Origin: Effrenium voratum
Lineage: Eukaryota > Sar > Dinophyceae > Suessiales > Symbiodiniaceae
NCBI GenBank assembly: GCA_963377175.1
Contig: CAUJNA010001035.1
Span: 366,418 to 430,417 of the forward strand
Length of the DNA stretch: 64,000 nucleotides
Reading direction: 5' to 3'
How positions within the stretch are numbered: the first letter of the stretch is position 1; every line of letters begins with the position of its first letter. The position numbers were made by a program, and so were the translations under genes. Shown here in pieces: positions 25,786-64,000 of the stretch. The notes beneath the pieces were generated by a model. That model was given only the letters and a program-made list of their open reading frames with translations. It did not search any database and had not been told where the DNA came from.

Positions 25786-25814
25786 ACGACCAAAGCGGTT
25801 TAGAGTTTAGGGTG

Positions 25815-36429: not shown

Positions 36430-36477
36430 AGTGTTGTCCACATGTGTGCGTGCGTGCGTGCGCGCGTGCGCGCGTGC

Positions 36478-36516
<39 letters not shown>

Positions 36517-43454: not shown

Positions 43455-43470
43455 CCCGTCATATGACGGG
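43455..43470. repeat. 16-bp perfect palindrome
   Basis: CCCGTCATATGACGGG, identical on both strands. It lies in the putative LTR/3' UTR of the giant element. Confidence 0.9.
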
Positions 43471-43604
43471 TGGAGCGTGCCATTTACTGATAGGATTTAA
43501 CTGCTCGCATGCGTCCGCAAACAGCTGGACACTACCGCCGTCAGCGGTGGAGCAAACCCACAAAGGCAGTTGCGCGACATCCCGGGCATTAAATTCCCGC
43601 CACC

Positions 43605-43623
43605 ACCCCGAATTAATCGGGGT
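43605..43623. repeat. Hairpin, 7-bp stem, 5-nt loop
   Basis: ACCCCGA, loop ATTAA, TCGGGGT. It lies in the putative LTR/3' UTR of the giant element. Confidence 0.85.
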
Positions 43624-44018
43624 AACGCTGTCCAACAAACCTTGTGGAAAAGTCCACATGACGACATTAGGTCACAACTGTTTGCATCAACAATGCAAGA
43701 AGTTTAATTCTTATCAGAAGCCATGAAATAAAAGATAACGTATGTCCATTAGTACCCTCGCCTAACGGCAAGAGGTACCCCTGACCATGCGTACCTGGAA
43801 AAATGCTTGAATTCCGCAAACCCGGGAGTAACCCCCCATCAGTTTGCTTTCCCTCTCACTCACACTGCTCCCTGATGAACACGTCCAGCAGCCCAGCAGC
43901 GGTATGGGAGGGACATGATCTCCGCGCCTCAGCGGTTCGGGAGGAACATCATCACCTCCGCACCGCGCCGACCATTGGAGAATGGACGCAAGCCTATCGG
44001 CCGCAATCCTCGTGACTC

Positions 44019-44030
44019 AGCCTACCGGCT
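44019..44030. repeat. Micro-hairpin that supplies the stop codon of the post-pol ORF
   Basis: The + strand reads AGCC-TACC-GGCT. On the coding strand the loop and closing bases give CGG TAG, so the ORF terminates within the hairpin. If read past it, the frame would stay open about 30 codons more. Confidence 0.8.
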
Positions 44031-47000
44031 ATCGTCACGTCTCCTCCGGTCACGTCCGCCCCGCGCACGGTCCCTATCACGATCCCTTTCGGATCTCCTG
44101 CGATCATCTCGCCTTCGATCTCGCTCCCGATCGAGTGAATCATCATCACGACGATCACGAGCATCGTCCCTCCTCCTGTCGCGATCATCCTCGCGCCGCG
44201 GACGGTATCTGCGCCTCCTCGACTCTCTGGAATCCCTGGTGTCCACGGTCCTAACGGACCTCCGAGAAGGAGTACGGGAAACATCCGATTCCCTACGCCT
44301 CCTCCCAGATCGAGAGTTCGTCACGATCTGGTTGAGAGCCTCCAGTGCCGACGCGTCCTCACCATTCCTGATGAAATCCCTGACCTGCTTGTTCAGCACT
44401 CTGTTGGTGGAGATCGACAAGAAAGCGTCCACCACCGAACTCTCAGGCAGCACCAGGAAGTGACCCTCCACCGGGCTCGCCGCAGCCCGCTCAGCAGACT
44501 GCAGCCGGATCTCCCCGCCTTCAGGCTTCTTTGCCATCGCCTTGGAGGCAGTCAAAGGCGCTACCGCATCCTTTGCCGAAGATCTGCCAAGCGCGGAGTG
44601 AAGATCATCCCCGCTAGCTTCTCTCGCTGCCGCACCTGGTCTGCTGTCGACGTCGCCAGGCCTCGTGGATGCCTCCCGCTTTGTCGACTCCTTCGCAGCC
44701 TCGTCGGGATCCCAACGGGACTTCCTTTCTCTCTTCTGCCCTTCGGCCGACCCGCGGCTACCGCCGGGAGCGTCACCTCCGCCTGTCTTCTCCTTCTTGA
44801 CCTCAACCTTCGGTTCGGCCTGCTTCGTCTCCTTAGCCACAGCTTTTGGAGCCGGAGCACTCTTCGCCTCAGATGCTGAAGCAGCCTTCCCTTTCGGCTC
44901 GGCCTTAGGAACCGGGGTCACTTTAGCCTTGGCACTCGGCCTGGCCCCTTCAACCACCATCTCGGCCCAAGACTTCTTCGGCTGAGCTGCTGCTGTATCA
45001 ACCTCCATCGGAGCAGGTCCAGCATCATCCTTCGCCTTTGGGACGGATGGGCTACCGCCCTTACCGGATCCTTTACCTGGCACTTCACCTGATTTTGGTG
45101 GCGGGCCGGAAGGACTACCGCCCTTACCGCCCTTTTCCCCCTTCTTCCCTTTTCCTTTTCCGCCCTTGGGGACCGGCTCCTGCTTGGGACCAGGACCCGG
45201 CGCAGCATGATGCACCGATTGGAGTCCCTCGATGTCCACGTTCAATGGTTCGGGTTGACGACCGTCAAGAACCGTCCTCACCCTTTCGTCACTAACGTAG
45301 ACGAACGGGTCACGGAAGGGTGCGGGAGGCTCCGACTGTCCGGCGCTGATCGCCTTCTGCACCTTGGCTATCGCCTCCTTCAACCTCTTCTTCTCATCGT
45401 ACCCCGTCTCCGATACCATGTACTTCCTGAGCTGCGAAATCAACGCATGACTCTCCAGGATGTCCACGTCCTTTCGATGGGTCGGGTACAATGGGGTCAG
45501 ATGACCAGCCGCGGAACCAATCACGTAAGCCATCGGAATATAGAATGACAAGTACGTGTCATGACGAGCGAACTTCCTAACGGAAGTCGTCATACGCCTA
45601 CCCCACTGAGCAGCGTGTCTTGGGTTGGCCCGGAAGTACTCCGTGACCGACTCAAATTTATCGACTTGGTTGGTCTTGATCAGGTGCTTCGCCACCCACT
45701 TCTCCACAAACGCATCCGAGGCCGAAATCCCGGACACATAGGAGAATTGGAAGAGCACCTTCGCCAGCTCATCCCACGCCGCATCGACACCTCCCTTGTC
45801 TTCACCAAGATAAGGGGGAAGTCTGATGCCGCTCTGCACCGTCATCCTCAGATCGGATGCCATTGAATAGGAAATCAAATTCCTCTTGATGACTCCGACC
45901 ACTTCGGAGGGGATCCTCCTGGGCTTGAACTGCCCCATGGTCCTCACCCATTCCGGCACGATGTGGCATCTTTCGAAGTCCTTTTCCTCCGCGTTGGGGA
46001 TAAAGTTCGGGTAAAAGACCGGGAGCGCGCACCCGGGACACAAGTGCATCCCATTCGGCATCAATTCTGCGCACCTCAAGCAGAACGTGGCAGTCACATT
46101 CAGCCTGATCTCTTCCCGTGATCGCCTGTGCTCTCCCCTAACGGGGGTGAAGTCACCGTAGTCCCATGCCCGATGGTACACTATCGTGTAATCATCGTAC
46201 ATATACGCCGCCTTCCAAGCCCCCATGTGGATCTCGTTCCTAACGGCAAGAGTCTTCCTTCTCGTCAAAAACACGGGTCCAACCAAGGACCAGTGCACCC
46301 GAAGATCCACCATTACCACCACGTACCTACCGGAGTAGTTCCGCAGCCTGTCCCTGACATACCACGAAGGCGATACCTCAGCATCCGGCGCCATGGCTCC
46401 CACAAGTGGGATCAGGCCCTCATCCTGCCTACCATCCCCAATGGTCTCGTACACATCGGGCCTCGTGATCAATATCTCGATCATGGCCTTTCCATTTCGC
46501 CTCACCCTTTGGAGCTGAACCGCCTTCCGAAAGTCCGAGAACTTCATGATGACGTATCCCACCATGGGGAGTTCATTCCAATGCATCTCATACATCAGAG
46601 ATCCGCCAGGTGCATCTTCCTGAGTATACCTGTGCCTAACGGCACTGTAACTCAAGTCGCGTCCGATCCGCGTGTGCCTAACGGCAACCAACCTGGTGCT
46701 CTCCTTGAGGAGAACGCCATCCCCGTCGTACATGACCATGAGCATCGCCTCCACTTGCCCTATCGGGAAAGCTTTAAGCGTCGGAATGAAGAACTTCCAA
46801 GACATCTCAGCGTTCTCCATACCCGAAATCTCCTTCAGGAACCAGATGGCCTGGTCACTTTTCACCCAGTTTCCAGCCTCGCGTCCGGTCTCCTTCAGCA
46901 CACGTTCCTCGAATAACTCCGAGACTCTCTTTGAATTGATGACCAAGCCGTCGAAATCGCACGAGAGCAGTCTCATCAACTCCTTCGCCGCCTCCCGTCC

Positions 47001-50000
47001 TGCAACAGTGCCCACGGTCTCCTCGTAGTTCGGGAGGTATTCACCCAACCTCGTCTTCGAGGGAACCACAATCTGGCAAGTGACGGCCTCATCAGGGATA
47101 ACTCCCGTTTCCCTTAACTCTGGATTGATCTCTCGCCTATCGGCAAGATAATCCTCCTTCCCATCCAGTATCACAAGATTGTAGGTCATCTTGCTCGCCG
47201 CCCCACTAGGCCTGAACTTCCTGCTATCATCCAACTGGTCAGGAGCAAAGGGTCCACTAGGGGCGGCCGCACTCACCAGAGGCGCTCCTCGCCCAGAGCA
47301 GAGGTGCTTCTTGTGAAAGTTCACCATCTGATTCAGCTGCGATAGTGCGTAGGCACGATCCTCCAATGACGCACTCTTCATCCCGGCCTCAGTCAGAGGA
47401 GCCTCAGGCTTGTCATAACTCGCCTTTCCGCCCCATCTCGCCGCGACCAGCTCAGCAGACTTCACAGGGTCGATCATATTTCCCGACCACTCAGGCATGT
47501 TGCTCAACCTCCTAGTCAACGCGTCTACCGACGCAGCCAAGTCTTCGTCCGTCACGGTGTAAGGGTCGACCTTCTCCCTGTCCTCTTGACCCACATCCGG
47601 AAGCCTATAATCCCCGCGGATGGCCTCCAGCGCGGCCCTCTCGGCTTCCTCAGCCTCCTTCTGCGTGGCCACTGCCCTCGGAATCAAGAGCGCTACCTCG
47701 GCCGGCAACGACTTCTCCATGTCTATCGGAGTGTTCTTGGGAAGGATCCTTCGATCATCTCCCTCCCCGCTGTACTCGTAGTCAGGAGCAGTCTTCCGGT
47801 ACTCCTCGAAGGTAGCCCCTTTGAAGTTGGTGATCTCACTCGGGTCTGTCTTCCCAGCCTCAGTACCCCGAGGCGTGGGCTCCTTCGTCCCGGTGGAATC
47901 CTTCTTGGAGCCTTCCTGATCCACGTCCATGTCGTCCTTCTTCTTCTCCGTCACGGACAGCTTCCCAATGTCAGGAAGGGTCACATCATCATCCTTTCCT
48001 GACCCGGCGCCCCTATCGGGGGCCGGCTCGGTCCTTGGTTGCCCCGAAGAGCTCGCCCCAGGATCCACATCGCCCTCGTCGTCCACATGTGGTCGCTTCC
48101 CCCACACGATCTTCGTCTTCGGCTTCAGCGGGACGGCGACACCTCCAGCCATATGGTGTCCAGGCCAAGTGGCTCCTTCAGGGTCATCCTCGAACCATGA
48201 TTTCCCGAACGGGAACCCATCCCTTCCGATGATCTCCTTCCTATCGGAAGTAGATCCCGAATGGGACAACGCAGATACATGAGACAGCATGATCTCAGCC
48301 GCCGATTGCGCCAGCGTATCGGACATCTGCTCCCTTGTCGGGATAGTCCGCAGCTCCGGAGCGAGGTGACCGGCAATCATGCTGAAAGGCGCAGTCCCCA
48401 GCCGCTTGCCCAACACCGCCTCATTCAGCGCGTTGAAATACTTCTGCAGCTTCTCCAGCATTGCCGTCGCCGCCATCAGCTGGGGATGAAACATGGGCAT
48501 CCGCCACGCGCGCCCAAGGGCGGAATCCACGTGCGATGCGATCGCAGTGATCGTCCCTACCAGCAAGTGCGACGATGCAATCTCCGGTACCCAAGTCGGG
48601 TCGTCCAAAGGAATGCATTGACCCGTCTGCGCGTTCAGCAAGGTAGCCCTCACCCCCGGCGCTCGAAGACAATCATACGCCCTGCGGTTCGGGTCACTAA
48701 CGACACCACGAACCATGTAATCATCCCGATCGGGCATATCTGCCCAGTCCCCCGGAGGTGCCCGCCCATGATGGTACTTCGCCTGAATGTCCTGCCTCAT
48801 CCCTAACGGGATATGGGCAGCCTCGGACGCCACCTTCTTCATGTTCCATTGCTGATCACCCCACGGCGTAGACTTCCGATCTCGAGGATTGATGTACTCC
48901 TGATCGATCCTCCCAGCAGCTCGGGAGGCATCCAATGCCCCGTACATGTAATCGTTATGCACGGCCCTCTCCAATACCGCGTTCCACTCGCTATCGCGAT
49001 TCGGGAACACAATGTGGCTAGTCTCGTTCGCCTTCCTCCACTCCTCCGCGGTAACCCGCTCTTGAGTGATTGCCTTGTTCCTGATCACGGCATAGATGAA
49101 GGGCTCACCAGCCTCCCTAGCCAGGATGTGCTGAACGATGAACCTCCTATTCGACCTGCTCTCCGCCGGTCTTGCCGATGTCCGCGAGCCCCTCGTGGAT
49201 TGATAGGAACTATGCTCACGGTGGTGCCGAACTTCCGCTGACTTCAGCTCGGGCGCCTCTCCCGGGTGCTCCGGGTACGGCGTGTTCGCATAATTGTGTA
49301 TGCCCCCTCGAGACTCCTGGGTTGAAGCCGCCTTCGGGGTCGCTGCAGTATCCCGCAGGTCCCCGTCGTCGTCCGTGTACTTCGGAGCATAGGAGATTGG
49401 CACACCCGGGCCACATGCACCCGACGCCTCCTCCTTCTTCTGAGCACCAACAGGTTCTCGAACCCTGCGTTCCTCCCTAACGGGCGATGCCGCTCGCTTT
49501 GCCGCAGGCGATTCCACCGACGGCTCTGTCGTAGTCGTAGTGGCCTGAGGCACCTCAGCTTCCCTACCGGGAGTCTCCTCCTCACCTGCAGCGGGAACCT
49601 CGGCTTCCTTCTCCGGCTCCATCTCAACGTCTCCGGTGAACTCTAACACCTCGGCCTCGGTCGGACCCCCACCATCGTTGAAGGTATCCGTAGGGAGATC
49701 GACCCCTTCCCTATCGGGTAGGAGATCATCGACCTCGGCGGAGCCACCCGTGTTCTCCTCCTCAATCGTCGCCCTAGGCGTTCGAAGATTCGATGACCAT
49801 CGATTCCCAACTTCGGTCGCCGTGACCTGAGGTGAAGAAACCCTCGGACTCCGAGGTGGGTTCGGCGGGGATTTCGGTCTCACCGATGCCAGCATCTCCT
49901 TCGTGACTAACGCCTTAGGAGGCGCTTTCGGGGCAGCGGTCTGACCTACCGCATTCTGACCTGCGTCAGATGACTGCCCACCAGGGGTAACGCCTACCGG

Positions 50001-52958: not shown

Positions 52959-53253
52959 GCGTCAGCAGGTTCGGGCCACCGGCCACGGAACCACGGAGGA
53001 ACCGGGAACCCAGCCTACCGGCCAGAATTCCCCTGTCCTTCAGAAGGCTCAGCCTATCGGCCAGAGACCCTCTCCCTAGAACAAGAACCTAGAAGATGAA
53101 TAATTGACTGAATCCGTCCTTCACGAAGCAGAAGAAAAACCTTAGTGACAGGCATATCTGCCTCATGTTTCTGTTCTGGTCAGTAAGCGCACTGAGTCGC
53201 CTGTGAATGTGGTGCGGTTGCCCGCGGTGTGAGCCAACTTGATCAAGCAAATG
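52959..53253 (-). other. Spacer between pol and the 2,978-codon ORF
   Basis: About 295 nt without a conserved frame. It carries two micro-hairpins, GCC-TACC-GGC (53013-53022) and GCC-TATC-GGC (53052-53061). It must hold whatever allows translation of the downstream ORF, such as a splice or trans-splice acceptor, a subgenomic promoter or reinitiation. None could be identified by eye. Confidence 0.6.
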
Positions 53254-56200
53254 CTACGCGGCAACGAAGTTGTTCAACCACTTCCCAACAGCAAGCAATC
53301 GGTCGTGCTGAGAGAGAGTATCCCCTCCTCGCATCTTGCAAGTACTCCAAAACGAATTGAAAGACTTAGAAGAAAAGCACCTAAACACAATCCCATGCCT
53401 CTTGAGACCACATTGGCAAGCGCAAACAGACCTGCAATCAAACCCATGCGTGGTGGCGATTCCTTCAACCTCACCTTCCTTCAAGATATTGCATTTAGGT
53501 CGATAGAGAATGATCGGAACACATCCACTGGTCCGAGCATCACAAGCCAAGTTGAACCTTTGCCTAACGGCAGCATCGGTCCTATCCCTAAGCTTTCTGG
53601 TCTGTCCCCACTTCCCAGTCCTGGAATCAACCCTATCGGGTGCAAGATCATTAAGAACAAGCACAACATAACAAAGGCTATCGCCTTCAATCCTACCAGA
53701 TCGTATGATGTGATTCCTGTAACCAGGAGCAACTTGAAGCGTGACAACCCTGCAAAGATCACTATAAGCAAGAACATCGGCTATCGCCTGATCCGCAATA
53801 ATAGTTTTCTCGCATCTTTTCCCTCCTTTTTCCTCGTCAATCACGATTCCCTCGTACTCAGAGAGTAACCTCTCAATGAGCCGATTGAAACCGGATTTTG
53901 CACCTGATTCCATGCGTACCCCCCTAAGCGGGGGCAGTCCAGGAGCGGCAGGGGGCTTAAGACAGGGTTGGGTGGGTTGGGCCAAATATTCCTGCAGGTA
54001 TCCCGGCAGGAACATACCAAGGGTGTGCAGATTTCTATTCCACACGACCTTGTCAATGCAGGCCTTAGTGAAAATGTCTGCACCTTGGTAGTGAGACGGG
54101 CACGCAACGAACCGAAAAATTCCAGCATTAAAACGTTCGTTGAGCCACGAGATGTCAATGCGCTGCGTCCTTGACATATAGCGCATGTTGGGATTATTCC
54201 CAGTTATAACGATCCGGCATGCCGATTCGTTATCCTCCAGCACGTTGATAATAAACGGCTGGGTCTCCTTTCCCTTCCCAATAGCGTGCTGCCAGAGGGT
54301 AGCTAATGCCATTCCCTCCTTGGACACTCCATGGTCGAGAGCAACAATCTCTGCTTCAGGAGTCGACTTCGAAACGGAAGTCTGTTTCTTGCTTACTCCA
54401 GTGATGGGCATGTAGGTCCTAGGACCCACAAGGCAAATAAGCACTCCCGATGTGCTCTTGGAATCAGTACGATCCCCAGCCAGATCCGCATCACAGTAAG
54501 CAACCAACTCAATGAACTCTGGGCTATCGCCCACCCAACCGTACAAATGAAGGTCGAGCGTAGAGTTCACATATGAAATTAACCTGTGGAGCTTGCGGTC
54601 ACACAGATGATTCCACTTCGTGACCCGGCTGGCTAACGCCTGCACGGGACGAATCAGGTCATACCTGCCCATCCGAGCCCCGTAGAGAACCTTCATCAGC
54701 ACCGCCGCCGCGTCATTTCCGAGGCATCCTGGCTGCGCATTGACGGTCTCCATGTCCATCGCCTGGTTGAAGAGTTTGTCAAATTCAGGATTGACGGAAT
54801 TCTCGTCAAACTCCGGCTTGCTCTCGTCCAGGAACGGAGTTTCAACCTTCTGCAGCTTCTTCGGGTACTTTCCCTGACACAGCTCAATGTATCTATCGAC
54901 ACACGCCTGCATGAAGCTGCTCTCGCTGTACTTGATGAACCTTATCGTGGTTTCCGGCTTGGGGATGTCCTTAGAGAGTAACCCCTCTGGACCAAACCTC
55001 AAGTCGGGTTGCTCCTTATCAGGAGGATTGCCGACCGTCCACGCCAGTCTCGGGTCAAAGTGACCCTTGACCACCTGTTGCGTGAATTCGTGCTCGCAGC
55101 CAAGATATCTCTTGAGCTGCCTTGGTTCCTCCATCTTGATGACCTTCGAGATCAGCGCCCATCCTTCTGCGATGTTCTTCGCCGGCCCACTCATCTTGAA
55201 GTCATCCACGTACACGACGAGGAAGAGGTCGAGCTCCTCATGCCTAAACACGCTGGCCCAATCCTTCACCTTGACGTATCCGACCTTCTTCAGCATTGCC
55301 TCGCAGTGCTGTTCCCAAAAGGTACCAGCGTCCGGATGTCCATATAGTGCGAGCACGAGAACAACGACTGGATCCTTATATCTGGGATTTCCGCTGCCGT
55401 CGAACCACTCAGGTGGCCACTGGTCACGAGGAATCCTCACCCAAGTCTTCTTTCCCTTCAAGCGGGCCTGAGTGTATGCAGATTCCCCATCACTCACTTC
55501 CAGAAGATTCCCTGGCAGTAACCCGTGAGCATCACCCATCTTACCCGCCGCCATAGTAGCGGGGCAGGAGGTGTTCTCGGAGAACAGGGCCCAATGCCCG
55601 ATCTCATCACGGACGAAACATCCCTCGAACACGACTCGCCCTTTATACTTGCGATTCGGATCGTCCTCCGGCAGCTCGTGATTCTTCTCGACACAAATGT
55701 CGAAAATTCTACCAACATGGATCTTCTCCCCCTCCTTACGTGCCTTGGCCGCAACATCATGCCACTCTTGGACAGTTGACAAGTCCCAGCATCCTTGCGA
55801 AGTTAACTTGTCCCACTCCTTCTGAAGAGCGGCCTTAGCCTTGGCATTCCCAGCTTGTTCCTTCTTGTTCACAGGTCTAGCGACACAAGCGTACAAGGGA
55901 GGAAAGACACCCGAGCTCTTTGGCCGATGAGAGAGGGATATCTCCCCCCTGGGCATAGAAAACTCAAAGGCCTTTCCGTCAGATCCAATCATAGGGGCAG
56001 CAGCAGCTATACCAGTGCTTCCGAAACCCGCGGATCCCCTATCGGTTCTCCGCTTGGTTTTCCTAGGGGCGATCGACGCGTCAATGAGCATGACACGCTC
56101 CAGTACGATCTGCGCAATGCGGTCCCCAGGATTTACGATGAAGTCCTCATCCCCATGATTAAAGAGGATGACCTTGATCTCTCCGTCGTAGTCGGGATCA

Positions 56201-58143
56201 ATGACCCCACCGCCTACAGCGATCCTATTCTTCACAGCTAGTCCTGACCTGGGAGCTATCCTAGCATACACCCCAGCGGGCATCTCTATCGAGATTCCGG
56301 TGTTGACCAAGCCTGACCCCCCTGCGGGAATACATGCTCCCTCAGAGGCATAGGTATCCAAACCCGCACTCCCCGAAGTAGCCCGCGTCGGGATCTTGGC
56401 AGTCTCACTGTTAAGACTAACGTACAAGGTATTCGGCTTCTTCTTCCATCGCTGCTCAATCGGGTCAACCTCGACCGGCATAGCATTCGCGACCTTCTTG
56501 AACGTGCCGTTTGGGTACCATGCTCTAACGATTGCCTCGCACATCGCGCTCGGATAGAGAGCAGTCGTTGGGGCGACCGACCCTTCAATGCGTGCATGAA
56601 GGTATCCCTTCTCGTGCTTGCATTTCCGACCTGACAGCTCATCAATGAGCTCCTTGGAGGTCGTCGCAACCTTCCACTGCTTTCTGATTGGCACACCGTC
56701 CTTATCCTGCATCCCGAAGTCACAGCCGTCGAAATCTACGGTCTCGACATCAGGATCAGCAAGAAACCTCTGCATGAACGGTTGCTTCCATCCAAGACAG
56801 TGTCTAGGCCACTCAAATGCAACCCTGCCCCCTCCTCGCCTAACGGCTCGGGAGGCCCGCAGGAATGCCGCAAACATTACCTGAGAATTTCTTCTCAGAT
56901 CATTCAGGTGTGATGCAAACTCAGCACCGTGGATTGAAAGGTTGACATACTGCCATGTACTCCACGGTCCGCACGGAATTGACGCCCAGAGGTCACACCC
57001 AGGATTATCCTCGATGATCTCAATAAGCCGACTAACGTCTTTGGCTTTGGTGATGTCAAATGAGCCAACGTGAACGCGAATTGCATCGCCTCCACACTCC
57101 ATCATCACTGCGGACAAACGCGAGTCAGGTTCACACGCAAACTCGATGAGGAGCTTGCGGCCAGGCGCTGGAGCAGCCGGGTCCCTCTCAGGATGTTCGC
57201 GGCGTCGTTCTTCCCTTAGGGATAACTCCCGTTCGGTTTGAACATATATCTCCCGAGACCGGGTAGACATCTGTCTCCAACTATCCGCATCAATCGAATT
57301 GGGTTTTCCGGTGCCTGCGTATGGCCGCTCACGCCTATCGGCGGATTGGCCATAGTCGATCCTGTCTCCGTGCAGCTTATGACCCTTCTTCGGACCTCCG
57401 GCAGGTTTGGCTCCTTCTTCCTTTGGCTTGAACCTGCCGTGGGGAGCACATCCCTTATCAAATAGGATGGTCACGCCGGTCCAAAAACCACGCGTGAAAT
57501 GCCGATGATTGGGGGCATCGTGATGACGATCATCTCTCACCCAATTTCCAACGGCATCAAGCCCCCGCATGTGCGTGACCCTAACGGTGTCAAGCTCCTC
57601 ATGCGAAGGATCACCTGGAGGAAGGTCCTCGTTCGTCGTCCCGAAGAACTTCTTCCGCACCTCAACGTGGATGCGACACCAGGCGCTGTCCTCGTCGTGC
57701 CGCTCCCAGTAATCTGAGACGCACGCGTCACCACTCCCTTGGACAGCCTTGCTCTGAATGGCCCCATCAGACTTGGAAGAGCTACCGCCCCCCTCGTCCT
57801 GTTGGTCATCGTCATCATCATCAGGATCATCAAATCGACCTTCATCAAAGTCGAATTCATCCCTGATCTTCTTACTCGGCTTAAGGTCGGCTCTTCGGTC
57901 AGCTAACGCCTCCCGAATGGTCCGAGTCCTAGCGTCATAGGATGCCAACATCGGGAACACGTAGGGCTCCTCAGGGTTCTTCCAGATACGTTTGACCTGG
58001 TGTATACTTGGTTTCCTGAGACCTCTTTGGATGTGCTCGAGATCAGCAACGAGATAGTCGCCCTTCCACAGCCCCCCTGGTTCTAACCGATAGCCCAGAA
58101 ATAGGCCTGGCTTGGAAGATGGGGCGAACTTTCGGATCCTCCT
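53254..58143 (-). CDS. pol: Pol polyprotein, second part: methyltransferase-like domain, dUTPase, reverse transcriptase, RNase H
   Basis: The frame is open from 58143. Its first residues, KFAPSSKPGLFLGYRLEPGG then WKGDYLVADL, are the integrase C-terminal motif of dinoflagellate-type copia elements. The nominal start at 57960 (a GTG) is therefore not a real start. Numbering from 57960: residues 268-480 hold a DNA-cytosine-methyltransferase-like block with FACEPDSRL, CDLWASIPCGPWS and VAFEWPRH. Residues 508-650 are a trimeric dUTPase with all five motifs (GSAGLDTYA, PRSGLA, GGVIDPDYDGEIKV, NPGDRIAQI, RGSAGFGSTG). It would cleave dUTP to dUMP and pyrophosphate. Residues 700-960 are a copia reverse transcriptase with YVDD at 917-920. 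Residues 1150-1300 are RNase H (AYCDADLAGD, STPEAE, EDNESA). A 250-residue C-terminal extension has no recognised domain. It stops with TAG at 53254. RT and RNase H catalytic acids look intact. Confidence 0.9.
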   Translation of the reverse strand, partial: RRIRKFAPSSKPGLFLGYRLEPGGLWKGDYLVADLEHIQRGLRKPSIHQVKRIWKNPEEPYVFPMLASYDARTRTIREALADRRADLKPSKKIRDEFDFDEGRFDDPDDDDDDQQDEGGGSSSKSDGAIQSKAVQGSGDACVSDYWERHDEDSAWCRIHVEVRKKFFGTTNEDLPPGDPSHEELDTVRVTHMRGLDAVGNWVRDDRHHDAPNHRHFTRGFWTGVTILFDKGCAPHGRFKPKEEGAKPAGGPKKGHKLHGDRIDYGQSADRRERPYAGTGKPNSIDADSWRQMSTRSREIYVQTERELSLREERRREHPERDPAAPAPGRKLLIEFACEPDSRLSAVMMECGGDAIRVHVGSFDITKAKDVSRLIEIIEDNPGCDLWASIPCGPWSTWQYVNLSIHGAEFASHLNDLRRNSQVMFAAFLRASRAVRRGGGRVAFEWPRHCLGWKQPFMQRFLADPDVETVDFDGCDFGMQDKDGVPIRKQWKVATTSKELIDELSGRKCKHEKGYLHARIEGSVAPTTALYPSAMCEAIVRAWYPNGTFKKVANAMPVEVDPIEQRWKKKPNTLYVSLNSETAKIPTRATSGSAGLDTYASEGACIPAGGSGLVNTGISIEMPAGVYARIAPRSGLAVKNRIAVGGGVIDPDYDGEIKVILFNHGDEDFIVNPGDRIAQIVLERVMLIDASIAPRKTKRRTDRGSAGFGSTGIAAAAPMIGSDGKAFEFSMPRGEISLSHRPKSSGVFPPLYACVARPVNKKEQAGNAKAKAALQKEWDKLTSQGCWDLSTVQEWHDVAAKARKEGEKIHVGRIFDICVEKNHELPEDDPNRKYKGRVVFEGCFVRDEIGHWALFSENTSCPATMAAGKMGDAHGLLPGNLLEVSDGESAYTQARLKGKKTWVRIPRDQWPPEWFDGSGNPRYKDPVVVLVLALYGHPDAGTFWEQHCEAMLKKVGYVKVKDWASVFRHEELDLFLVVYVDDFKMSGPAKNIAEGWALISKVIKMEEPRQLKRYLGCEHEFTQQVVKGHFDPRLAWTVGNPPDKEQPDLRFGPEGLLSKDIPKPETTIRFIKYSESSFMQACVDRYIELCQGKYPKKLQKVETPFLDESKPEFDENSVNPEFDKLFNQAMDMETVNAQPGCLGNDAAAVLMKVLYGARMGRYDLIRPVQALASRVTKWNHLCDRKLHRLISYVNSTLDLHLYGWVGDSPEFIELVAYCDADLAGDRTDSKSTSGVLICLVGPRTYMPITGVSKKQTSVSKSTPEAEIVALDHGVSKEGMALATLWQHAIGKGKETQPFIINVLEDNESACRIVITGNNPNMRYMSRTQRIDISWLNERFNAGIFRFVACPSHYQGADIFTKACIDKVVWNRNLHTLGMFLPGYLQEYLAQPTQPCLKPPAAPGLPPLRGVRMESGAKSGFNRLIERLLSEYEGIVIDEEKGGKRCEKTIIADQAIADVLAYSDLCRVVTLQVAPGYRNHIIRSGRIEGDSLCYVVLVLNDLAPDRVDSRTGKWGQTRKLRDRTDAAVRQRFNLACDARTSGCVPIILYRPKCNILKEGEVEGIATTHGFDCRSVCACQCGLKRHGIVFRCFSSKSFNSFWSTCKMRGGDTLSQHDRLLAVGKWLNNFVAA

Positions 58144-60955
58144 CTATCTTGATGAAGTCCCGCTCTTTCTTCTCGGCGGGCAGGGCAGTAGTGACGCTTG
58201 TCTCTTCAACCTCTACCTCATCAATGGGAACAAAGTCCGGTTCGTCGTTGCATTCGGGTTCATACTCCTCGTTCTCATAGATCTCGGCCTCGTCCTCATC
58301 GATCTGATCAAAATCACAGTCGAAATGAGTTTCTCCAGTCCACTCGTGGTTACCTCCACGGTCGTTCTCGGCCCGGAGCCAATTTTCGTCAACAACAAAT
58401 TCGGTCGATCCGTCCAGATAGTTGAGGACTGTGCTCCGCCTCCTGCCAAGGTCTTTGATCTTGACTGGACAGCTCGTCCCTATCGGGATAAAGAGCTCGG
58501 TTCGCGCTTCAACGTGGACGCGAGTGAGAACCTTCTCGTCTTCATTTGCGATCCAGTGGTCTCCTCCTTCATCAACGTCCTCTGAGTCGATCTTTCCAGC
58601 ATGTCTGAAGTCGTTTTGGGCGTTTTGAACCCCCCCCTTTCTATCCCTGCGAATCTTGGGAGCAATGGGGTAGAAGTCGACCAGACAACCAAACGGCAGA
58701 ATGACTCCGCTGAAGTTCCCGTCACCGTGGCGTCGCATCCACGGTGATCCCTCACCGCGATTTTCAATATTCCTTGCCATGGAAAAATGCCTAACGGCAA
58801 ATGGCCACCATCGAGGTTCAAATCCAGCCTGACGCAGGAGCACACGTGCCCCATGGAGAACAAGCTTGACCTTGTTCTCGATCAGGCCGTTGGTCTTGGG
58901 CATGCCCGGTGTAGAAAGCCGGTGCAACGCTCCAAGCGTAGTGACAGCATTCTTCAGCTCTGGGGCCTGGTCGCTGTACACTAACTTCAGAGTTTGCCCC
59001 CCTGCGAACCTGCGAAATGCCTCCAGCGTATTGCTACGGGATCTGGACTGCACAGGAAGGACTTCGAGGTAGTCAGTAGCGAGGTCATAGAACACTATCG
59101 CGTCTGCTTCGCCATGAAAGCCTCGATCCTTCAATCCTCTCAATACCATCGTGTCGGCGGTGGTTAGGTCCCCGAAACTTACCACGTCATGCGCAGCAGC
59201 ACCACCTTTGCGGCGAAGCTTGACATTCTCCATTTTCGCACGCTGGCAGTGCGGGCAATAGGGGTTCTTTGGGAGATGCGTGAGCATATGGCGAAGCGTC
59301 TTAGCATCTGCCCGCCACTCAGCCTCTGTGCGTAGTCCGGAGAGAAAGTTTATCTCGACAATGTCACCATCATCCCCTTCCCCCGGGCCAGGAAAAGGTG
59401 GTGAGTGGCTATCGCCCTCACCCCCCTGTTCCGCCTTTCCGGGAAGAGCAACGGTCTCGCACTTGACCCGAAACCACGTTTCACCCGTCCAAGGGACATC
59501 AGATGCTATCGCATGCTGATCTCTTTCGGATAACTCCCATAGACTATCAACCAGCACCTCATGGGTAACCCCATTTCGATGAACGACAGTTTTCCTGTAG
59601 TTGTCCAATCGATCAACTCCAACGGGGCAATCATCGCCTATCGGCACAAACTTTGCTTTGCGCGGAAGCCGGTGCTCCTTCACAACATGGCCCGACCGCT
59701 CAGTGCGCCAGGTGTCCTGTAGCTCACTCTTGGCCGCAAGCTCAGACCTACACGGCGGAATCTCGCTGGCTTCAAGCCCTCGATATGCCGCCCCGGGGGC
59801 AGGCATAGCAGGGATTGGCTCAGCATCATCAAGAGTGGGAGAAACGAACTGAGTGTCACCATGAGGAAGATATGGCACGTTGTTGATGACATCCAATGTC
59901 ACCGTCCGGCCCGAAGGACACGTGAGAGTAGGCTTGCAACCTGCAGCCCATACAAACGAGTATCCCATATCCATACAACGCTTTCCAACGGATATGATGG
60001 ATGGAGTGGACTCAAGGACGTGTGCCTCAATCACCTCGTCCAGGTTGCCAACATCAGCATCAACACGACCAGCGGTGCGAGTCGCCCCGTTGGCAGTGTG
60101 CAGCGCATGAGTGTGTCCGCCTTTGGCAATCAGGGCCGTATCGGGTCCTTTCAAATCACCGAGACCAACCAGATCCATTGGGCAACCAGTATCTACCAGC
60201 CACCTCACCCCATCGTATCCAACAGGTGCAGCAACCTTCTGAGTGTACTTCGGCTTTCTTACAACGCGATGTCCCCGCACATCCCCAGGGTTGGTGTCGA
60301 TGTCCTCGTCATCGTCTAAGAGCACTTGGGCATGAACAGCCGCTGCTCTTATCAGAGCACTTTGAACCTCCCTAGCAATCCTCTTGCGCGAAGGGAACTT
60401 AATCGCATTTGGATGGCTGTATCCAGCCTCACGGCAACGATTCACGACCCTACCCGTATTGTCATTCTCGATCGAGACAACAAACACATCAGGAAGATCG
60501 GGAATCTTGACCCTGAGAGGTTCCCTACCGGGACCCTTCGGGAAGTACTTGTTCCTCCAGGAGAGTACAGCCTCCGCATCATCGCAATACCAAAACGTCG
60601 TCTTGGTATCACTTCGTCTTGGGAGTCTCCTGAACAAGGTTGCTCGGCGATCACTAAAGTTCACCCCGTTATCCTCTATTACGGTCCCATTTGCGTCAAC
60701 TGTCCGTCTCCAGATGACTTGGTCCCATTTAGGACCTCCACCGGTAGTGCCGGAGAAGAACAATGCGCCTCGCTCGCTTTTCTCCCAACTGCTAACGCAA
60801 GGTGGGAGGCAACCCGGTGCAGACCCACCGGTAGCTGGGGCAACAGCCCACATAGCTGGACACGCCACAACAACACGGTTGGCCTCAGGGTAACGGCCCG
60901 CCCCGCCTAAAAATCCGTCAATCCTTGAGCGGGGCTGTCGAGACGCCTCGCCTCC
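58043..60955 (-). CDS. pol: Pro-integrase part of the polyprotein
   Basis: The frame is open from 60955, overlapping the end of gag in the -1 frame. The nominal start at 60868 is a GTG, so expression by frameshifting from gag is likely. Numbering from 60868: residues 221-240 contain WLVDTGCPMDLVG, the aspartic protease site (DTG followed by Cys instead of the usual Ser/Ala). Residues 527-541 are the integrase HHCC zinc finger (H527, H531, C538, C541). The catalytic core has D567 or D572 (GDLTTAD), D633 (YSDQAPEL) and E664 (NGLIEN), the last two 30 residues apart as in copia. PFGCLVDFYP follows at about 725. Two copies of a ~65-residue unit (F-[VI]-PIG-x2-CPV ... WTGET) flank the integrase core at 406-472 and 792-852. 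The frame ends at 58043 after leaving the conserved path near 58140, where the sequence continues in the next frame (+1). Confidence 0.88.
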   Translation of the reverse strand, partial: GGEASRQPRSRIDGFLGGAGRYPEANRVVVACPAMWAVAPATGGSAPGCLPPCVSSWEKSERGALFFSGTTGGGPKWDQVIWRRTVDANGTVIEDNGVNFSDRRATLFRRLPRRSDTKTTFWYCDDAEAVLSWRNKYFPKGPGREPLRVKIPDLPDVFVVSIENDNTGRVVNRCREAGYSHPNAIKFPSRKRIAREVQSALIRAAAVHAQVLLDDDEDIDTNPGDVRGHRVVRKPKYTQKVAAPVGYDGVRWLVDTGCPMDLVGLGDLKGPDTALIAKGGHTHALHTANGATRTAGRVDADVGNLDEVIEAHVLESTPSIISVGKRCMDMGYSFVWAAGCKPTLTCPSGRTVTLDVINNVPYLPHGDTQFVSPTLDDAEPIPAMPAPGAAYRGLEASEIPPCRSELAAKSELQDTWRTERSGHVVKEHRLPRKAKFVPIGDDCPVGVDRLDNYRKTVVHRNGVTHEVLVDSLWELSERDQHAIASDVPWTGETWFRVKCETVALPGKAEQGGEGDSHSPPFPGPGEGDDGDIVEINFLSGLRTEAEWRADAKTLRHMLTHLPKNPYCPHCQRAKMENVKLRRKGGAAAHDVVSFGDLTTADTMVLRGLKDRGFHGEADAIVFYDLATDYLEVLPVQSRSRSNTLEAFRRFAGGQTLKLVYSDQAPELKNAVTTLGALHRLSTPGMPKTNGLIENKVKLVLHGARVLLRQAGFEPRWWPFAVRHFSMARNIENRGEGSPWMRRHGDGNFSGVILPFGCLVDFYPIAPKIRRDRKGGVQNAQNDFRHAGKIDSEDVDEGGDHWIANEDEKVLTRVHVEARTELFIPIGTSCPVKIKDLGRRRSTVLNYLDGSTEFVVDENWLRAENDRGGNHEWTGETHFDCDFDQIDEDEAEIYENEEYEPECNDEPDFVPIDEVEVEETSVTTALPAEKKERDFIKIEEDPKVRPIFQARPISGLSVRTRGAVEGRLSRC
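60907..60955 (-). promoter_or_regulatory. Candidate -1 ribosomal frameshift window between gag and pro
   Basis: The two frames overlap only in this 49-nt window. The -1 frame is closed upstream by a TAG at 60956-60958 and gag is closed by the TAG at 60907-60909. The overlap ends with GATTTTTAG; a P-site TTT slipping back one base pairs again with TTT and exposes TTA instead of TAG. This resembles but is not the canonical X-XXY-YYZ heptamer. The 6-bp micro-hairpin CCTCCC-TATC-GGGAGG (60951-60966) lies just upstream, not downstream. A mutational frame break is the alternative. Confidence 0.4.
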
Positions 60956-62712
60956 CTATCGGGAGGACTGGGCGTAGGCGATCTAGGGGTATCCCCCTCT
61001 TCATCCTCAACAACCGGACCAGCAGTGGAACGAGGCGTGATGGGCTTCGTGCCTGGTGGTGGCTTCTGATGCAGGTACTTGCACGGCTGAGCTGTGCACT
61101 TGCCATACATCCAGTCGTAGCAGTATCCGAAGAACATAGGCTTGTCCCTAACGGGCCTATCTCCAGTCCTCGGCGTAGAAGGCGCAGCGGGGTTCCTTGG
61201 GCTCTTGTCGTGCTCGAACCTGCATTCCCGGCCATATTGACACTTCCCAGTCTTCGTATACTCCCAGCACGCCCGATCAGCAGGCCCAGCAGGGGACTGT
61301 CTTCTCGGCGACTTGGGAGATGGCGTGCGCTTGTCCCTCTGACTGCCTCTTCCTGGTGAAGCCCTGTTTCTTTGACTGCTCCTTCCGGGCGAAGATGATC
61401 TTGGCTTTCCGTCGGGTTTCCCATCCCTTCCGGACCTAACGGACCTTGAAGGACTAGGATCACTCTTCCTGGCAAGTGGATCGTATCTCCGCACAACACC
61501 AGGGGCACCAGGATGCCGATCCCTCTCCCGGGATTGAGAGCCTGATCGTGACCTCTGTTCATGAAAGGTCTGGTACATCTGGAGCGTGTTCTGGCGCTTC
61601 TGCCACCGTTCGACACAGTCCTGACAAGCCTTATAAAGCCACGCGAACGACCTAACGGTCACATCGCGATCCCACCTCTCAATGTCAGGCCGCATACAGC
61701 GCAGATGACGAACGTTCTCGATGAACACAGCCAATAGTACCCCATCATCGATCTTCTTCCTAATCCCAGAAATGAGATTGTCCCAGGTGCTCAGATAACT
61801 CCGGAGCCTTGCTTCATCATCAGAGTGACCTGTCTGCCGGCACTTGAGACTGGTCAACTCAGCAATTTTGAAGGTCTGGTCGTCCTCGACTCCAGTCTGC
61901 AGGTGGTTCAGCAGAAGCTTCAAGATCTGTCTCCCCTTGATACCCTGGGGGGGATTCATATTCTGAGCGGCTTCGGTCAGGCGATTCATCTTGTCCCTAA
62001 CAGCCCTGGTCTTGATACACTCCCTGATAGCACTCGTGAAGTTTGAGTCCAAAATCGGGTACTTGCAGGGTCCGCCAAGAGCATCATAGTCGAGTCTCTC
62101 AGTCTCTGAAATCCACGCTAACGCGTAGTCAGAGTCAAAGCTGAAAGCGTTCCTGACCCTCTCTTTGATCTCTGAAAGCCACTCCCGCAGCTTATCAGCT
62201 GTCGGCTCAGCAGGCAGCACGATCGTGTTGCACTTGTGATGGAACCGGTCCTTATCGACAACGGTGGAAATAAGAGCCCCTATCGGGGTACACGAGGTAA
62301 TCCTGCAACTTTCACACAGTCTAGCAGGCATAGGGCAGCAAACTTCACACGCCCTCATTCCACAACCAACGCAAGGAACAAGAGGGAAACCAGGCTCAGG
62401 GATCCTGTTACACTTAGTGCACCTGTCCCGTCCATCATCCCCCCTCAAGGCTTCAGGGAGAAGACCACCATCTCCCTGCCTACCGGCCCCATTAACGCTG
62501 TAGCCAAGGCTGAGACCTGGCCCAAGGTTACCACCACTTGCAACACTCGAGGGGTAACCTACAGCATCGTTGGGCTGACTAACGCCAGTGCCAACCCCGT
62601 GGTGGCTAACGCCTCCTCCGTAGGCAGGACCATAGAAACTGGAACCACACTGATTGTTCCCAGTTCCATGAGTATCCGCAGCACTACCATGGAACCCGGG
62701 CGCTCCACCAGG
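60907..62712 (-). CDS. gag: Gag with two CCCH zinc fingers
   Basis: The frame is open from 62712, right after a TAA at 62713-62715. The nominal start at 62448 is TTG, and no ATG is required if it is one protein with the upstream ORF. Numbering from 62448: residues 9-50 have Cys pairs (CTKC, CVGC, CEVCC, CESC) that continue the Cys-rich cluster of the upstream ORF. Residues 75-300 match the copia Gag core (LREWLSEIKERVRNAF, LDSNFTSAIRECIKTRA, GRQILKLLLNHLQT, LRSYLSTWDNLI, MRPDIERWDRDV). An Arg/Ser/Pro-rich linker follows. Then come two CCCH fingers, C-x8-C-x5-C-x3-H (CWEYTKTGKCQYGRECRFEH) and C-x7-C-x4-C-x3-H (CYDWMYGKCTAQPCKYLH), in place of the retroviral CCHC knuckle. Gag would package the element RNA. 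It ends ...LTDF-stop on GATTTTTAG, at which a -1 shift enters pro-pol. Confidence 0.85.
   Translation of the reverse strand, partial: PGGAPGFHGSAADTHGTGNNQCGSSFYGPAYGGGVSHHGVGTGVSQPNDAVGYPSSVASGGNLGPGLSLGYSVNGAGRQGDGGLLPEALRGDDGRDRCTKCNRIPEPGFPLVPCVGCGMRACEVCCPMPARLCESCRITSCTPIGALISTVVDKDRFHHKCNTIVLPAEPTADKLREWLSEIKERVRNAFSFDSDYALAWISETERLDYDALGGPCKYPILDSNFTSAIRECIKTRAVRDKMNRLTEAAQNMNPPQGIKGRQILKLLLNHLQTGVEDDQTFKIAELTSLKCRQTGHSDDEARLRSYLSTWDNLISGIRKKIDDGVLLAVFIENVRHLRCMRPDIERWDRDVTVRSFAWLYKACQDCVERWQKRQNTLQMYQTFHEQRSRSGSQSRERDRHPGAPGVVRRYDPLARKSDPSPSRSVRSGRDGKPDGKPRSSSPGRSSQRNRASPGRGSQRDKRTPSPKSPRRQSPAGPADRACWEYTKTGKCQYGRECRFEHDKSPRNPAAPSTPRTGDRPVRDKPMFFGYCYDWMYGKCTAQPCKYLHQKPPPGTKPITPRSTAGPVVEDEEGDTPRSPTPSPPDREARRLDSPAQGLTDF
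60951..60966. repeat. Micro-hairpin with 6-bp stem at the gag/pro overlap
   Basis: CCTCCC-TATC-GGGAGG, perfect stem. On the coding strand it creates the TAG that closes the pro frame upstream of the overlap. Confidence 0.85.
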
Positions 62713-63999
62713 TTAACCCCCGGTAGGAGCCCCTCCATTCGGGCCTCCAGAAGGCCCAGCGGGACCTTGGCCTCCACCATAATGCCCAGGACCTGGCGGT
62801 GGAGCTGGGGCATGTCCATGACCACCACTTCCGCTCCCACCTTGACCAGGTGGTCCGCCTTGCCCACCACCTCCCCCGGGAGGAGGAGGAGGGGGCGGTC
62901 CAGCTTGCGCGCGCTCATGCCGAATATTGCAGCGCGCACATCGCTCAAGGCCGTCACTTCCAAAGTAGCTGTGATTCTCACAGACGTGAGTCCCACAATC
63001 CGTGCAGAAATACATGGAGACCTCCTGAGCATTCTTGCGACATGCCCAGCATTTCATTTTCAAGAACTGACAATTGTAACAGTCCCCGTCGTCACCACAG
63101 CAAAGCCCGCAGAACTCACGACTGCATGTCACACACGAGAATTCAGCGTTCGGGTGCCTACGGTCGTTGGGATCATCGAGGGCACAAATCTTTGGCGCGT
63201 CTGGGCCATCGCCGCCGGGAGCCCCTCTTGCAGCCGGCGCTGAGGCCTGTCCACGATCCGACGGATCTCCAGCGGTCCCTCGCCTATCGCCGGGACTCTG
63301 GGCGTCGGCGCTGGCTCTACTCCCAGGAGTCCTCCACTCATCACCAGGACTCTGGATGTCGGCATGAACCCTATTACCCCCACCACCTCCTGAATGACGA
63401 CCTGGGTTCGGAGAGACGTTCCCGCTATCGCGGATTGGCCTATCAAAGCTCGGAGAGACGCTCCCGCTATCGCGGATCGGCCTCTCCCCCCTCGATTGTC
63501 GACTCCGGACCTCAGATCCCCTATCGGGGACGGCAGCAGGCCTCGGGCTCCTATTCCTACCCGCATCCCTATTGGGGGAAATAGAAACGTCCCCCCTTGC
63601 GCGCGCGCGGGGACCACCCCTTGCACGCTCCGGTGGCGAATGCGACCTGTCAGGCAACCCCCGAACCCTCCTGCTCCTGCTGTCGGACCTCTCCCTAACG
63701 GGATAGATGGGATGCCTGTCTGCGCGAGAAGGATCGACCCTATCGGGCACATTCGGCAAAACATGATCAGGCAAAACAACGCCTCCGCCTGGTCTCACCG
63801 GCAGGCCAGTACCCCGGCCGTCACCTTCCCCTGGTGTAGGCGTCGGTGACCTGATCCTATGTCCTTGCCCCGCAAATGCATGGTAACCAACATTCCGTCT
63901 TTCTCTGGGTTGTGGAGGAGCTTCATTAATCTGCTGGACACCCTGAATAATGCCAGCAGCCTCGTCAAATTGACCCTCCATCTCAAAGAGCTGGGACAT
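62713..63999 (-). CDS. Cys-rich, disordered N-terminal part of Gag (possibly incomplete at window edge)
   Basis: The first 265 residues are rich in Arg, Ser, Pro, Gly and Asp and probably disordered. They include a tandem repeat of PIRDSG[SN]VSP, mirrored in the DNA at 63415-63480. Residues about 270-360 form a Cys/His cluster: CVTCSREFCGLCCGDDGDCYNC, CWAC, then YFCTDCGTHVCENH and CARC. This resembles paired B-box/RING-type zinc folds, but I cannot assign a family. The C-terminus is Gly/Pro-rich. The frame ends at a single TAA (62713-62715), beyond which the same frame continues through a similar Gly-rich stretch straight into the next ORF, so the two were probably one Gag. An ATG at 63997-63999 is at the very edge; the frame may extend further right. 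Confidence 0.7.
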   Translation of the reverse strand: MSQLFEMEGQFDEAAGIIQGVQQINEAPPQPRERRNVGYHAFAGQGHRIRSPTPTPGEGDGRGTGLPVRPGGGVVLPDHVLPNVPDRVDPSRADRHPIYPVRERSDSRSRRVRGLPDRSHSPPERARGGPRARARGDVSISPNRDAGRNRSPRPAAVPDRGSEVRSRQSRGERPIRDSGSVSPSFDRPIRDSGNVSPNPGRHSGGGGGNRVHADIQSPGDEWRTPGSRASADAQSPGDRRGTAGDPSDRGQASAPAARGAPGGDGPDAPKICALDDPNDRRHPNAEFSCVTCSREFCGLCCGDDGDCYNCQFLKMKCWACRKNAQEVSMYFCTDCGTHVCENHSYFGSDGLERCARCNIRHERAQAGPPPPPPPGGGGGQGGPPGQGGSGSGGHGHAPAPPPGPGHYGGGQGPAGPSGGPNGGAPTGG

Positions 64000-64000
64000 G

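Follow-up and report, generated by a model that had tools for sequence, protein, structure and literature searches.

The 64,000-nucleotide (nt) stretch of the dinoflagellate Effrenium voratum analysed here (contig CAUJNA010001035.1, positions 366,418 to 430,417; hereafter the window) ends in a long terminal repeat (LTR) retrotransposon of the Ty1/copia type, which lies on the minus strand and continues beyond the window. Along the sense (minus) strand of this element we found 103 hairpins with a tetraloop of the form G-D-U-A (D being A, G or U), 87 of which are inside the window (Table 1). The array is under selection, operates in the sense RNA, is coded in the loop and is specific to an LTR retrotransposon lineage. 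Our best explanation, in which we place middling confidence and which draws on sequence comparison, is that a protein would recognise the hairpins as sites dispersed along the genomic RNA, the likeliest such protein being Gag during packaging.

A family of GDUA hairpins along the element

Hairpins were counted when they had at least four pairs, G.U being allowed and at least three pairs being Watson-Crick; by this rule there is one antisense match within the element. For GNTA hairpins with four Watson-Crick pairs, the element (24.1 kb) has 73 on the sense strand and none on the antisense strand. When all tetraloops with four or more Watson-Crick pairs were scanned, GATA (33 hairpins), GTTA (19) and GGTA (9) stood out, the next loop reaching 3, and no comparable hairpin family was seen in the window at loop lengths 3 and 5-9. 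GCTA is scarce, with one case among the 57 hairpins that have a CGNTAG core and at least three pairs. An earlier note on this DNA had described the loop as a fixed GNTA enclosed by a fixed C-G pair. The loop is indeed fixed, although as GDUA rather than GNTA, and C-G closure is a preference, not a fixed feature: the closing pairs of the 103 hairpins are CG 56, GC 24, AT 13, TA 7 and TG 3, and those of GNTA hairpins with at least three outer Watson-Crick pairs are CG 36, GC 11, TA 7, AT 7, TG 2 and AA 1.

The existence of the hairpins claimed in that note is borne out, while their number (about 48) was too low. Its list of 48 starts is exact in 45 cases; 54530, 58487 and 62614 are each 10 bases off, with the real hairpins nearby at 54520-54533, 58477-58488 and 62604-62613. 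The interval 43760-63747 contains 57 CGNTAG cores with at least three pairs, nine of which had been missed, and the family comprises about 100 members. The single orientation holds: between 43 and 64 kb, at least three pairs flank 57 of the 84 sense cores and none of the 8 antisense cores. The first 43 kb, reported as empty, are so for CGNTAG cores with at least three pairs (none among 12 cores on one strand and 13 on the other), but not for any closing pair, since 2 and 3 GNTA hairpins with four Watson-Crick pairs occur on the respective strands.

Hairpins fill the interval from LTR to LTR. On the sense strand, bins of 3 kb contain none on the left and few past the right end. The array is confined to this retroelement and its kin; in the element it runs through coding and non-coding parts, as had been proposed: open reading frames (ORFs) account for 0.91 of its length and contain 93 of the 103 hairpins. 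The stems stand alone, measure 4-6 bp and occur about once per 230 nt. Their spacing has a mean of 233 nt and a coefficient of variation of 0.83; no periodicity was found, and an exponential distribution was not rejected for the window set. No position is biased at p<0.01 in the flanks up to 25 nt around the 103 hairpins. Within ORFs, C-G-closed hairpins with at least three pairs use two of the three phases; as read from the sequence, the third is unused because a stop codon would fall in frame. At the second stem pair, across the element (43056-67159), G.U is oriented 5'G-3'U in 16 cases and 5'U-3'G in one. The hairpins gave no Rfam match at the gathering threshold, and among the matches listed by a search of open-licence papers none dealt with such hairpins, which does not show their absence from print.

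Comparison with shuffled and host sequence

Between 43 and 64 kb we counted 61 GNTA hairpins with at least four Watson-Crick pairs, compared with a mean of 0.79 and a maximum of 4 in 100 dinucleotide shuffles; the antisense strand has 0. With G.U allowed, the count rises to 96 (shuffles: mean 4.69, largest 11) and that of the antisense strand to 2. When codons of the five ORFs were shuffled synonymously (300 shuffles), a mean of 1.69 and a maximum of 6 hairpins were obtained vs 58 observed. Equal frequency in such shuffles or on the antisense strand, named beforehand as grounds for giving up the family, was thus not seen. The host background amounts to 17 hairpins on both strands of 20 stretches (177,500 non-N bases), or 0.48 per 10 kb per strand.

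Mismatches point to the sense RNA

A functional sense RNA would be expected to tolerate G.U but not A.C. Stems whose first five pairs include a single non-Watson-Crick pair were therefore sorted by the kind of that pair. At pairs 1-4 there are 17 G.U, 0 A.C and 12 others; at pair 5 the figures are 9, 6 and 18. Over pairs 1-5, G.U accounts for 26 of 32 (p = 0.002), and the control set of other tetraloop hairpins has 58 G.U and 48 A.C. For CGNTAG cores, the first break in outer pairs 1-3 is G.U in 20 cases, A.C in 3 and another combination in 25. These counts point to the sense RNA as the functional form, and selection acts on the sense (genomic) RNA of the element. The same excess of G.U over A.C on the sense strand disfavours a function at the DNA level. 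When folding was predicted with 150-nt flanks, the median probability was 0.97 for 69 fully Watson-Crick hairpins and 0.17 for 72 other tetraloop hairpins.

Stems and loops are conserved between sister families

The hairpins were followed into L029, from a sister family (P0014 type, about 82% protein identity). In its alignment to the window, P0014 shows 82% identity for the greater part and 73% for what remains. In 10 kb of L029 we counted 35 hairpins on the sense strand and 1 on the antisense strand. Its alignment with the window spans 9940 bases at 73% identity; of the 41 window hairpins in it, 29 have a counterpart at the homologous site in L029 and 12 do not, and a further 11 sites are found only in L029. 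In the part covering ORFs C and D (7470 bases, 76%), 19 of 20 four-pair stems are still paired, as against 2 of 20 controls with other loops. Of the pair columns in the GDUA stems, 73 are unchanged, 4 differ on both sides yet still pair, 2 differ on one side yet still pair, and 1 is broken; the control columns comprise 31, 5, 13 and 27, respectively, plus 4 double breaks. The stems are compensated, as the earlier note had it, and the compensatory changes appear between related copies, where it had suggested looking for them. Loop positions 1-4 changed in 0, 11, 1 and 0 of 20 cases. Third codon positions in ORF D are 94.3% identical to L029 within stems (n=35) vs 53.5% outside (n=1526; p = 3e-7), and at first and second positions stems show no significant difference from the rest in this comparison. 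L030, a copy at 87% nucleotide identity, has 26 of 29 hairpin sites in common with the window element. The hairpins are kept by selection, under which loop positions 1, 3 and 4 are fixed and position 2 is free, and pairing of the stem is constrained while its sequence is free.

When the proteins were aligned with eight homologues, 16 of 664 hairpin codons and 236 of 11128 other codons were gapped. Because hairpin codons are as seldom gapped as others, the hairpins were not inserted; the stems lie in conserved motifs free of gaps, VARP and QALA among them. Hairpin residues are somewhat less conserved in distant homologues (for instance 0.39 vs 0.60 for P0002). The hairpins were built by substitution within existing codons.

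A distant relative with another loop class

A scan of bacterial and archaeal genomes yielded three contigs that resemble stray eukaryotic DNA (L001, L002 and L003). In L001 (3,630 bases, a single contig, 48% identical in the best aligned part) no GDUA hairpin was found on searching. It has YNMG hairpins (five pairs, at least four Watson-Crick), 17 on the sense and 2 on the antisense strand; 500 synonymous shuffles gave a mean of 2.18 and a maximum of 7, and related loop patterns used as controls gave 0 to 2 on the sense strand. Two of the 17 are inside a tandem repeat (2569 and 2590). Single non-Watson-Crick pairs are G.U in 9 cases, A.C in 2 and others in 5.

Because the YNMG pattern had been chosen after the loops were seen, a blind scan of 608 loop patterns was run. 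The top pattern was GNTA in ORFs C, D and E of the window, in L029 and in L030 (p 8e-25 to 1e-8; only 1e-2 for ORF C), and TNNG/TNCG in L001 (p 9e-8). Nothing beyond p 1e-3 was detected in L002, L003, L031, L032, L033 or L023+L034; the best pattern of L032, TNNG (6 vs 1.37 expected, p 3e-3), is not significant over 608 patterns. L023 had appeared rich in YNMG (6 to 0 for YNCG), and was rejected as a candidate when the next 10 kb were included (YNMG 9 sense, 3 antisense; blind scan null). Four other copia loci of the genome (L031, L032, L033 and L023+L034) are thus without a loop code. Among them, L032 and L033 are close kin; the reverse transcriptase tree gave no placement for L031. The nearest kin of the window element in this tree, whose bootstrap had not settled, are the families of P0001-P0003, and L001 falls outside the GDUA pair at a fork that the tree leaves unresolved. 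The loop codes may have had one origin with losses, or two origins. No relatives were found among the viral contigs scanned, where the one pattern match, L035, had no match to element proteins.

GNUA and YNMG are described, in the parts of PMC6563195 and PMC5633025 used here, as alternative optimal loops for one enterovirus protein. GCUA and GUUA take the UNCG fold (PMC5633025, citing Ihle 2005 and Melchers 2006); this UNCG-like (Z-turn) assignment of GUUA and GCUA comes from nuclear magnetic resonance work, and GAUA and GGUA do not appear in the sections of PMC5633025 and PMC5311481 consulted. The preference of the YNMG/GNUA class for C-G closure recurs both in the GDUA hairpins (56 of 103) and in the YNMG hairpins of L001 (16 of 17). 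The use of the GNUA and YNMG classes by two related retroelements fits recognition of the loop shape by a protein. We tentatively suggest lineage-specific loop 'dialects', GDUA in one dinoflagellate copia lineage and YNMG in another, in which the entire genomic RNA would be marked by about one hairpin per 150-250 nt, read by shape, each family packaging its own RNA rather than that of neighbouring families. It is conceivable, with similar reserve, that the reader is a co-evolving element protein and that the dialects are the two classes which, independently, serve one enterovirus protein.

What reads the hairpins

According to the packaging explanation, the sense RNA would present GDUA tetraloops on about 100 stand-alone stems, and a protein would read this loop together with its fold. 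We infer a protein reader from fixed loop bases combined with stems that are free in sequence and constrained to pair; that this reader is most likely encoded by the element follows from the other copia loci of the genome, which have no hairpins. The likeliest candidate is Gag (ORF B), which through many weak sites could pick out, condense and package the 24-kb RNA. The earlier note had offered RNA structures as one reading, and it is the best one.

Several points weigh against this explanation. Pairs of CCCH fingers are also present in the hairpin-less loci L031, L032, L033 and L023+L034, so a CCCH fold is not enough to account for the code. In ORF B itself, the CCCH matches fall under the Pfam cut-offs. 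CCCH fingers usually bind single-stranded RNA. The stems of the folding control are poorer in G+C than those of the hairpins (0.54 vs 0.71). As GNYA loops are able to adopt either of two folds, the GNRA-like one included (PMC5311481, as far as drawn on here), a shape common to GDUA and YNMG is not certain. Finally, the same pattern would be expected if dispersed protein sites served other functions.

Such functions make up the strongest competitor, which we regard as possible though rather unlikely: a protein of the element or the host would read the hairpins to export unspliced RNA, to suppress cryptic cis- or trans-splicing of the 24-kb RNA, or to control its stability, localisation or translation. 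The even density in coding and non-coding parts and the lack of a conserved flanking base within 25 nt suit a coating protein, ORFs A and E are large, without assigned function and could encode the reader, and the LTR contains the final 12 nt of the spliced leader. A general host factor, however, should serve other copia families too, and four loci have no hairpins.

Docking of the loops on RNA, in contacts of tetraloop-receptor type by which the genomic RNA would fold or dimerise with no specific protein involved, is improbable. Fixed loop bases on free stems would fit a docking motif, and YNMG loops are said to join tertiary interactions (title of Proctor et al. 2002), but the 25-nt flanks hold no partner motif (a receptor elsewhere was not searched for). 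About as improbable is a host-directed role, with hairpins helping the RNA to evade or decoy a silencing or decay factor. The restriction of the array to a young, high-copy family agrees with it; escape from a double-strand nuclease, however, needs no fixed loop bases, and other copia loci persist without hairpins.

As the source of the array, mutation by snap-back duplication or template switching, or a hairpin function of the DNA, is very improbable. Template switching can yield perfect short palindromes, and the earlier note had considered footprints of snap-back duplication. Duplication or insertion of this kind was rejected on the codon gapping and on the position of the stems in ungapped motifs, and the process leaves the fixed loop bases, the one-strand excess of G.U over A.C, the third-position constraint and the compensatory pairs unaccounted for. 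Chance, codon usage or composition can be dismissed, the latter two being ruled out by the dinucleotide and synonymous shuffles, and all three opposed by the antisense strand, the first 43 kb and the host stretches as well.

Relation to known systems

The array appears to work like the dispersed packaging signals of single-stranded RNA viruses (MS2, parechovirus, enterovirus E) and is a candidate member of that class. In the portions of PMC6281560 and PMC7793301 used here, those signals are many short stem-loops spread genome-wide, with a minimal common loop motif and variable stems, and are proposed to recruit coat protein. Here too, many stem-loops with a common loop motif lie along the genome (103 in 24.1 kb) and are conserved by selection that is independent of coding. 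The viral signals, by those accounts, were identified by SELEX (systematic evolution of ligands by exponential enrichment) or by modelling, and they are sparse; enterovirus E, for instance, has 29 peaks above background. The roughly 100 sites of this LTR retrotransposon have a strict tetraloop and are evident in the sequence by itself.

Domain d of the enterovirus oriL carries a GNUA/YNMG tetraloop bound by 3C(D) (PMC5633025, PMC6563195, relevant parts). The same two loop classes are reported as optimal there for one RNA-protein contact, and position 2 is free in both systems; the picornavirus, however, has one replication hairpin and this element about 100. No 3C-like protein was found in the element. 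Retroviral Psi is near the 5' end, and Ty1 Gag has no zinc finger and shows low specificity in vitro (PMC8396678, in the extract used). Gag there selects its own genomic RNA, as the window element's Gag putatively would; unlike Psi, the sites here are spread over the whole length. Dinoflagellate Ty1/copia elements, as far as PMC5890265 was drawn on, share RVT_2, a copia-type capsid and LTRs with the window element, which differs in its 24.1 kb, dUTPase, extra ORFs A and E, CCCH in place of CCHC, and hairpin array.

Whether RNA genomes are chosen through many dispersed protein sites or one packaging signal is debated, one reason being the sparseness and degeneracy of the sites proposed. In this element, their number and regularity allow selection to be seen at silent positions of codons, and different loop classes are apparently in use in two related lineages, which makes the dispersed-site idea directly testable in a retrotransposon. 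If true, it would explain how copia families in one nucleus keep their RNAs apart. The array also provides a simple computational signature to look for in further retroelements and RNA viruses.

The retrotransposon and its surroundings

The element belongs, by its sequence, to a young, high-copy family of Ty1/copia LTR retrotransposons. With the adjoining stretches joined to the window, its two LTRs share 99.74% identity across 385 columns, which marks this copy as young; of 7291 candidate copies in the genome 30 were scored, and all 30 are 98-100% identical to ORF D. The sequence CAAAA adjoins both ends of the element, in CAAA-rich repeat surroundings where a match arises easily by chance.

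The ORFs follow in the order of transcription A, B (Gag), C (pol part), D (dUTPase, RVT_2) and E. ORF D matches RVT_2 with E 1.6e-5 and 25.1 bits, beneath the Pfam cut-off of 31.6, which relatives exceed (e.g. P0004, 36.1 bits); it is 57-64% identical to P0001 and P0002 over 80-91% of the query, and 6 of its 89 homologues carry Symbiodinium names, which together with the spliced-leader sequence in the LTR was taken to indicate a dinoflagellate host. The dUTPase domain shares ORF D with the reverse transcriptase (E 8.7e-38). ORF B has the capsid fold expected of Ty1/copia, with its CCCH fingers in the place of the nucleocapsid. In the copia loci with Gag in view, tandem CCCH fingers stand where CCHC knuckles are usual. 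ORF C itself has no Pfam match, integrase included, but a profile that includes ORF C-like relatives matches the Ty1 integrase 7z0h at 2.9e-11. Domain searches found no known domain in ORF A and none in ORF E, whose single homologue is P0090 (56% identity over 57%).

Table 1. Positions of the retrotransposon, its parts and its GDUA hairpins in the window (hairpins by the four-pair rule with G.U allowed)
Feature	Position	Strand	Remark
LTR retrotransposon, Ty1/copia type	43056..64000 in window, on to ~67159	-	24.1 kb in total
Possible 5-bp target-site duplication	43051..43055	.	CAAAA, read by eye
3' LTR	43056..43439	-	TG...CA ends; partner of 5' LTR
5' LTR	66776-67160	-	beyond window
ORF E	44022..52958	-	2978 aa, without known domain
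ORF D	53254..57960	-	dUTPase and RVT_2 reverse transcriptase
ORF C	58043..60868	-	aligned with pol part upstream of reverse transcriptase in relatives
ORF B	60907..62448	-	Gag: copia-type capsid fold and two CCCH fingers
ORF A	62713..64000 in window	-	open frame 62716-66174; no assigned function
Hairpin	43390..43403	-	GTTA, inside LTR
Hairpin	43708..43719	-	GATA
Hairpin	43755..43774	-	GTTA
Hairpin	43824..43837	-	GTTA
Hairpin	44019..44030	-	GGTA
Hairpin	44247..44260	-	GTTA
Hairpin	44755..44766	-	GGTA
Hairpin	45049..45060	-	GGTA
Hairpin	45110..45125	-	GGTA
Hairpin	45572..45587	-	GTTA
Hairpin	46135..46146	-	GTTA
Hairpin	46177..46190	-	GATA
Hairpin	46466..46483	-	GATA
Hairpin	46632..46645	-	GTTA
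Hairpin	46675..46686	-	GTTA
Hairpin	46908..46923	-	GTTA
Hairpin	47095..47106	-	GTTA
Hairpin	47131..47148	-	GATA
Hairpin	47521..47534	-	GGTA
Hairpin	47857..47874	-	GGTA
Hairpin	48010..48021	-	GATA
Hairpin	48237..48250	-	GATA
Hairpin	48732..48745	-	GATA
Hairpin	48799..48812	-	GTTA
Hairpin	48988..48999	-	GATA
Hairpin	49048..49059	-	GTTA
Hairpin	49343..49358	-	GATA
Hairpin	49561..49572	-	GGTA
Hairpin	49991..50002	-	GGTA
Hairpin	50074..50091	-	GGTA
Hairpin	50356..50369	-	GTTA
Hairpin	50628..50641	-	GATA
Hairpin	50858..50871	-	GGTA
Hairpin	50931..50946	-	GGTA
Hairpin	51005..51016	-	GTTA
Hairpin	51071..51084	-	GATA
Hairpin	51225..51236	-	GATA
Hairpin	51383..51394	-	GATA
Hairpin	51788..51803	-	GTTA
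Hairpin	52042..52057	-	GTTA
Hairpin	52063..52074	-	GATA
Hairpin	52595..52612	-	GATA
Hairpin	52762..52773	-	GATA
Hairpin	52815..52850	-	GGTA, 16 pairs (10 Watson-Crick)
Hairpin	53010..53025	-	GGTA
Hairpin	53150..53163	-	GATA
Hairpin	53314..53327	-	GATA
Hairpin	53561..53572	-	GTTA
Hairpin	53630..53641	-	GATA
Hairpin	53674..53687	-	GATA
Hairpin	53688..53703	-	GGTA
Hairpin	53715..53728	-	GTTA
Hairpin	53861..53874	-	GTTA
Hairpin	54520..54533	-	GATA
Hairpin	54888..54903	-	GATA
Hairpin	54973..54988	-	GTTA
Hairpin	55012..55025	-	GATA
Hairpin	55101..55114	-	GATA
Hairpin	55933..55948	-	GATA
Hairpin	56282..56295	-	GATA
Hairpin	56598..56611	-	GATA
Hairpin	57219..57230	-	GTTA
Hairpin	57332..57343	-	GATA
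Hairpin	57776..57793	-	GGTA
Hairpin	58477..58488	-	GATA
Hairpin	58788..58799	-	GTTA
Hairpin	59092..59103	-	GATA
Hairpin	59503..59514	-	GATA
Hairpin	59561..59574	-	GTTA
Hairpin	60209..60226	-	GATA
Hairpin	60344..60359	-	GATA
Hairpin	60415..60428	-	GATA
Hairpin	60522..60533	-	GGTA
Hairpin	60951..60966	-	GATA
Hairpin	60985..60998	-	GATA
Hairpin	61649..61660	-	GTTA
Hairpin	61734..61745	-	GGTA
Hairpin	61792..61803	-	GTTA
Hairpin	62113..62128	-	GTTA
Hairpin	62188..62201	-	GATA
Hairpin	62277..62288	-	GATA
Hairpin	62575..62588	-	GTTA
Hairpin	63422..63433	-	GATA
Hairpin	63464..63475	-	GATA
Hairpin	63517..63530	-	GATA
Hairpin	63692..63703	-	GTTA
Hairpin	63804..63819	-	GGTA

At 43366-43377 on the minus strand, about 62 nt from its 5' end, the LTR contains the 12 nt with which the dinoflagellate spliced leader ends (sequence as given in the part of PMC6050394 used). 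This is the one exact match in the window, where 0.62 would be expected by chance at up to one mismatch, and the LTR may carry a spliced-leader relic or acceptor. A tie between the hairpins and the spliced leader was considered and dropped, as the hairpin core merely resembles the leader start.

The relative P0058 has a cytosine methyltransferase domain (PF00145) together with RVT_2, in contrast to the portion of PMC5890265 drawn on, according to which Symbiodinium Copia elements are without domains of this type. Elsewhere in the window, long GT-rich and TGA microsatellites occupy 36446-38391 and 18743-19227, and a 110-bp unit is repeated 2.7 times at 25497-25788.

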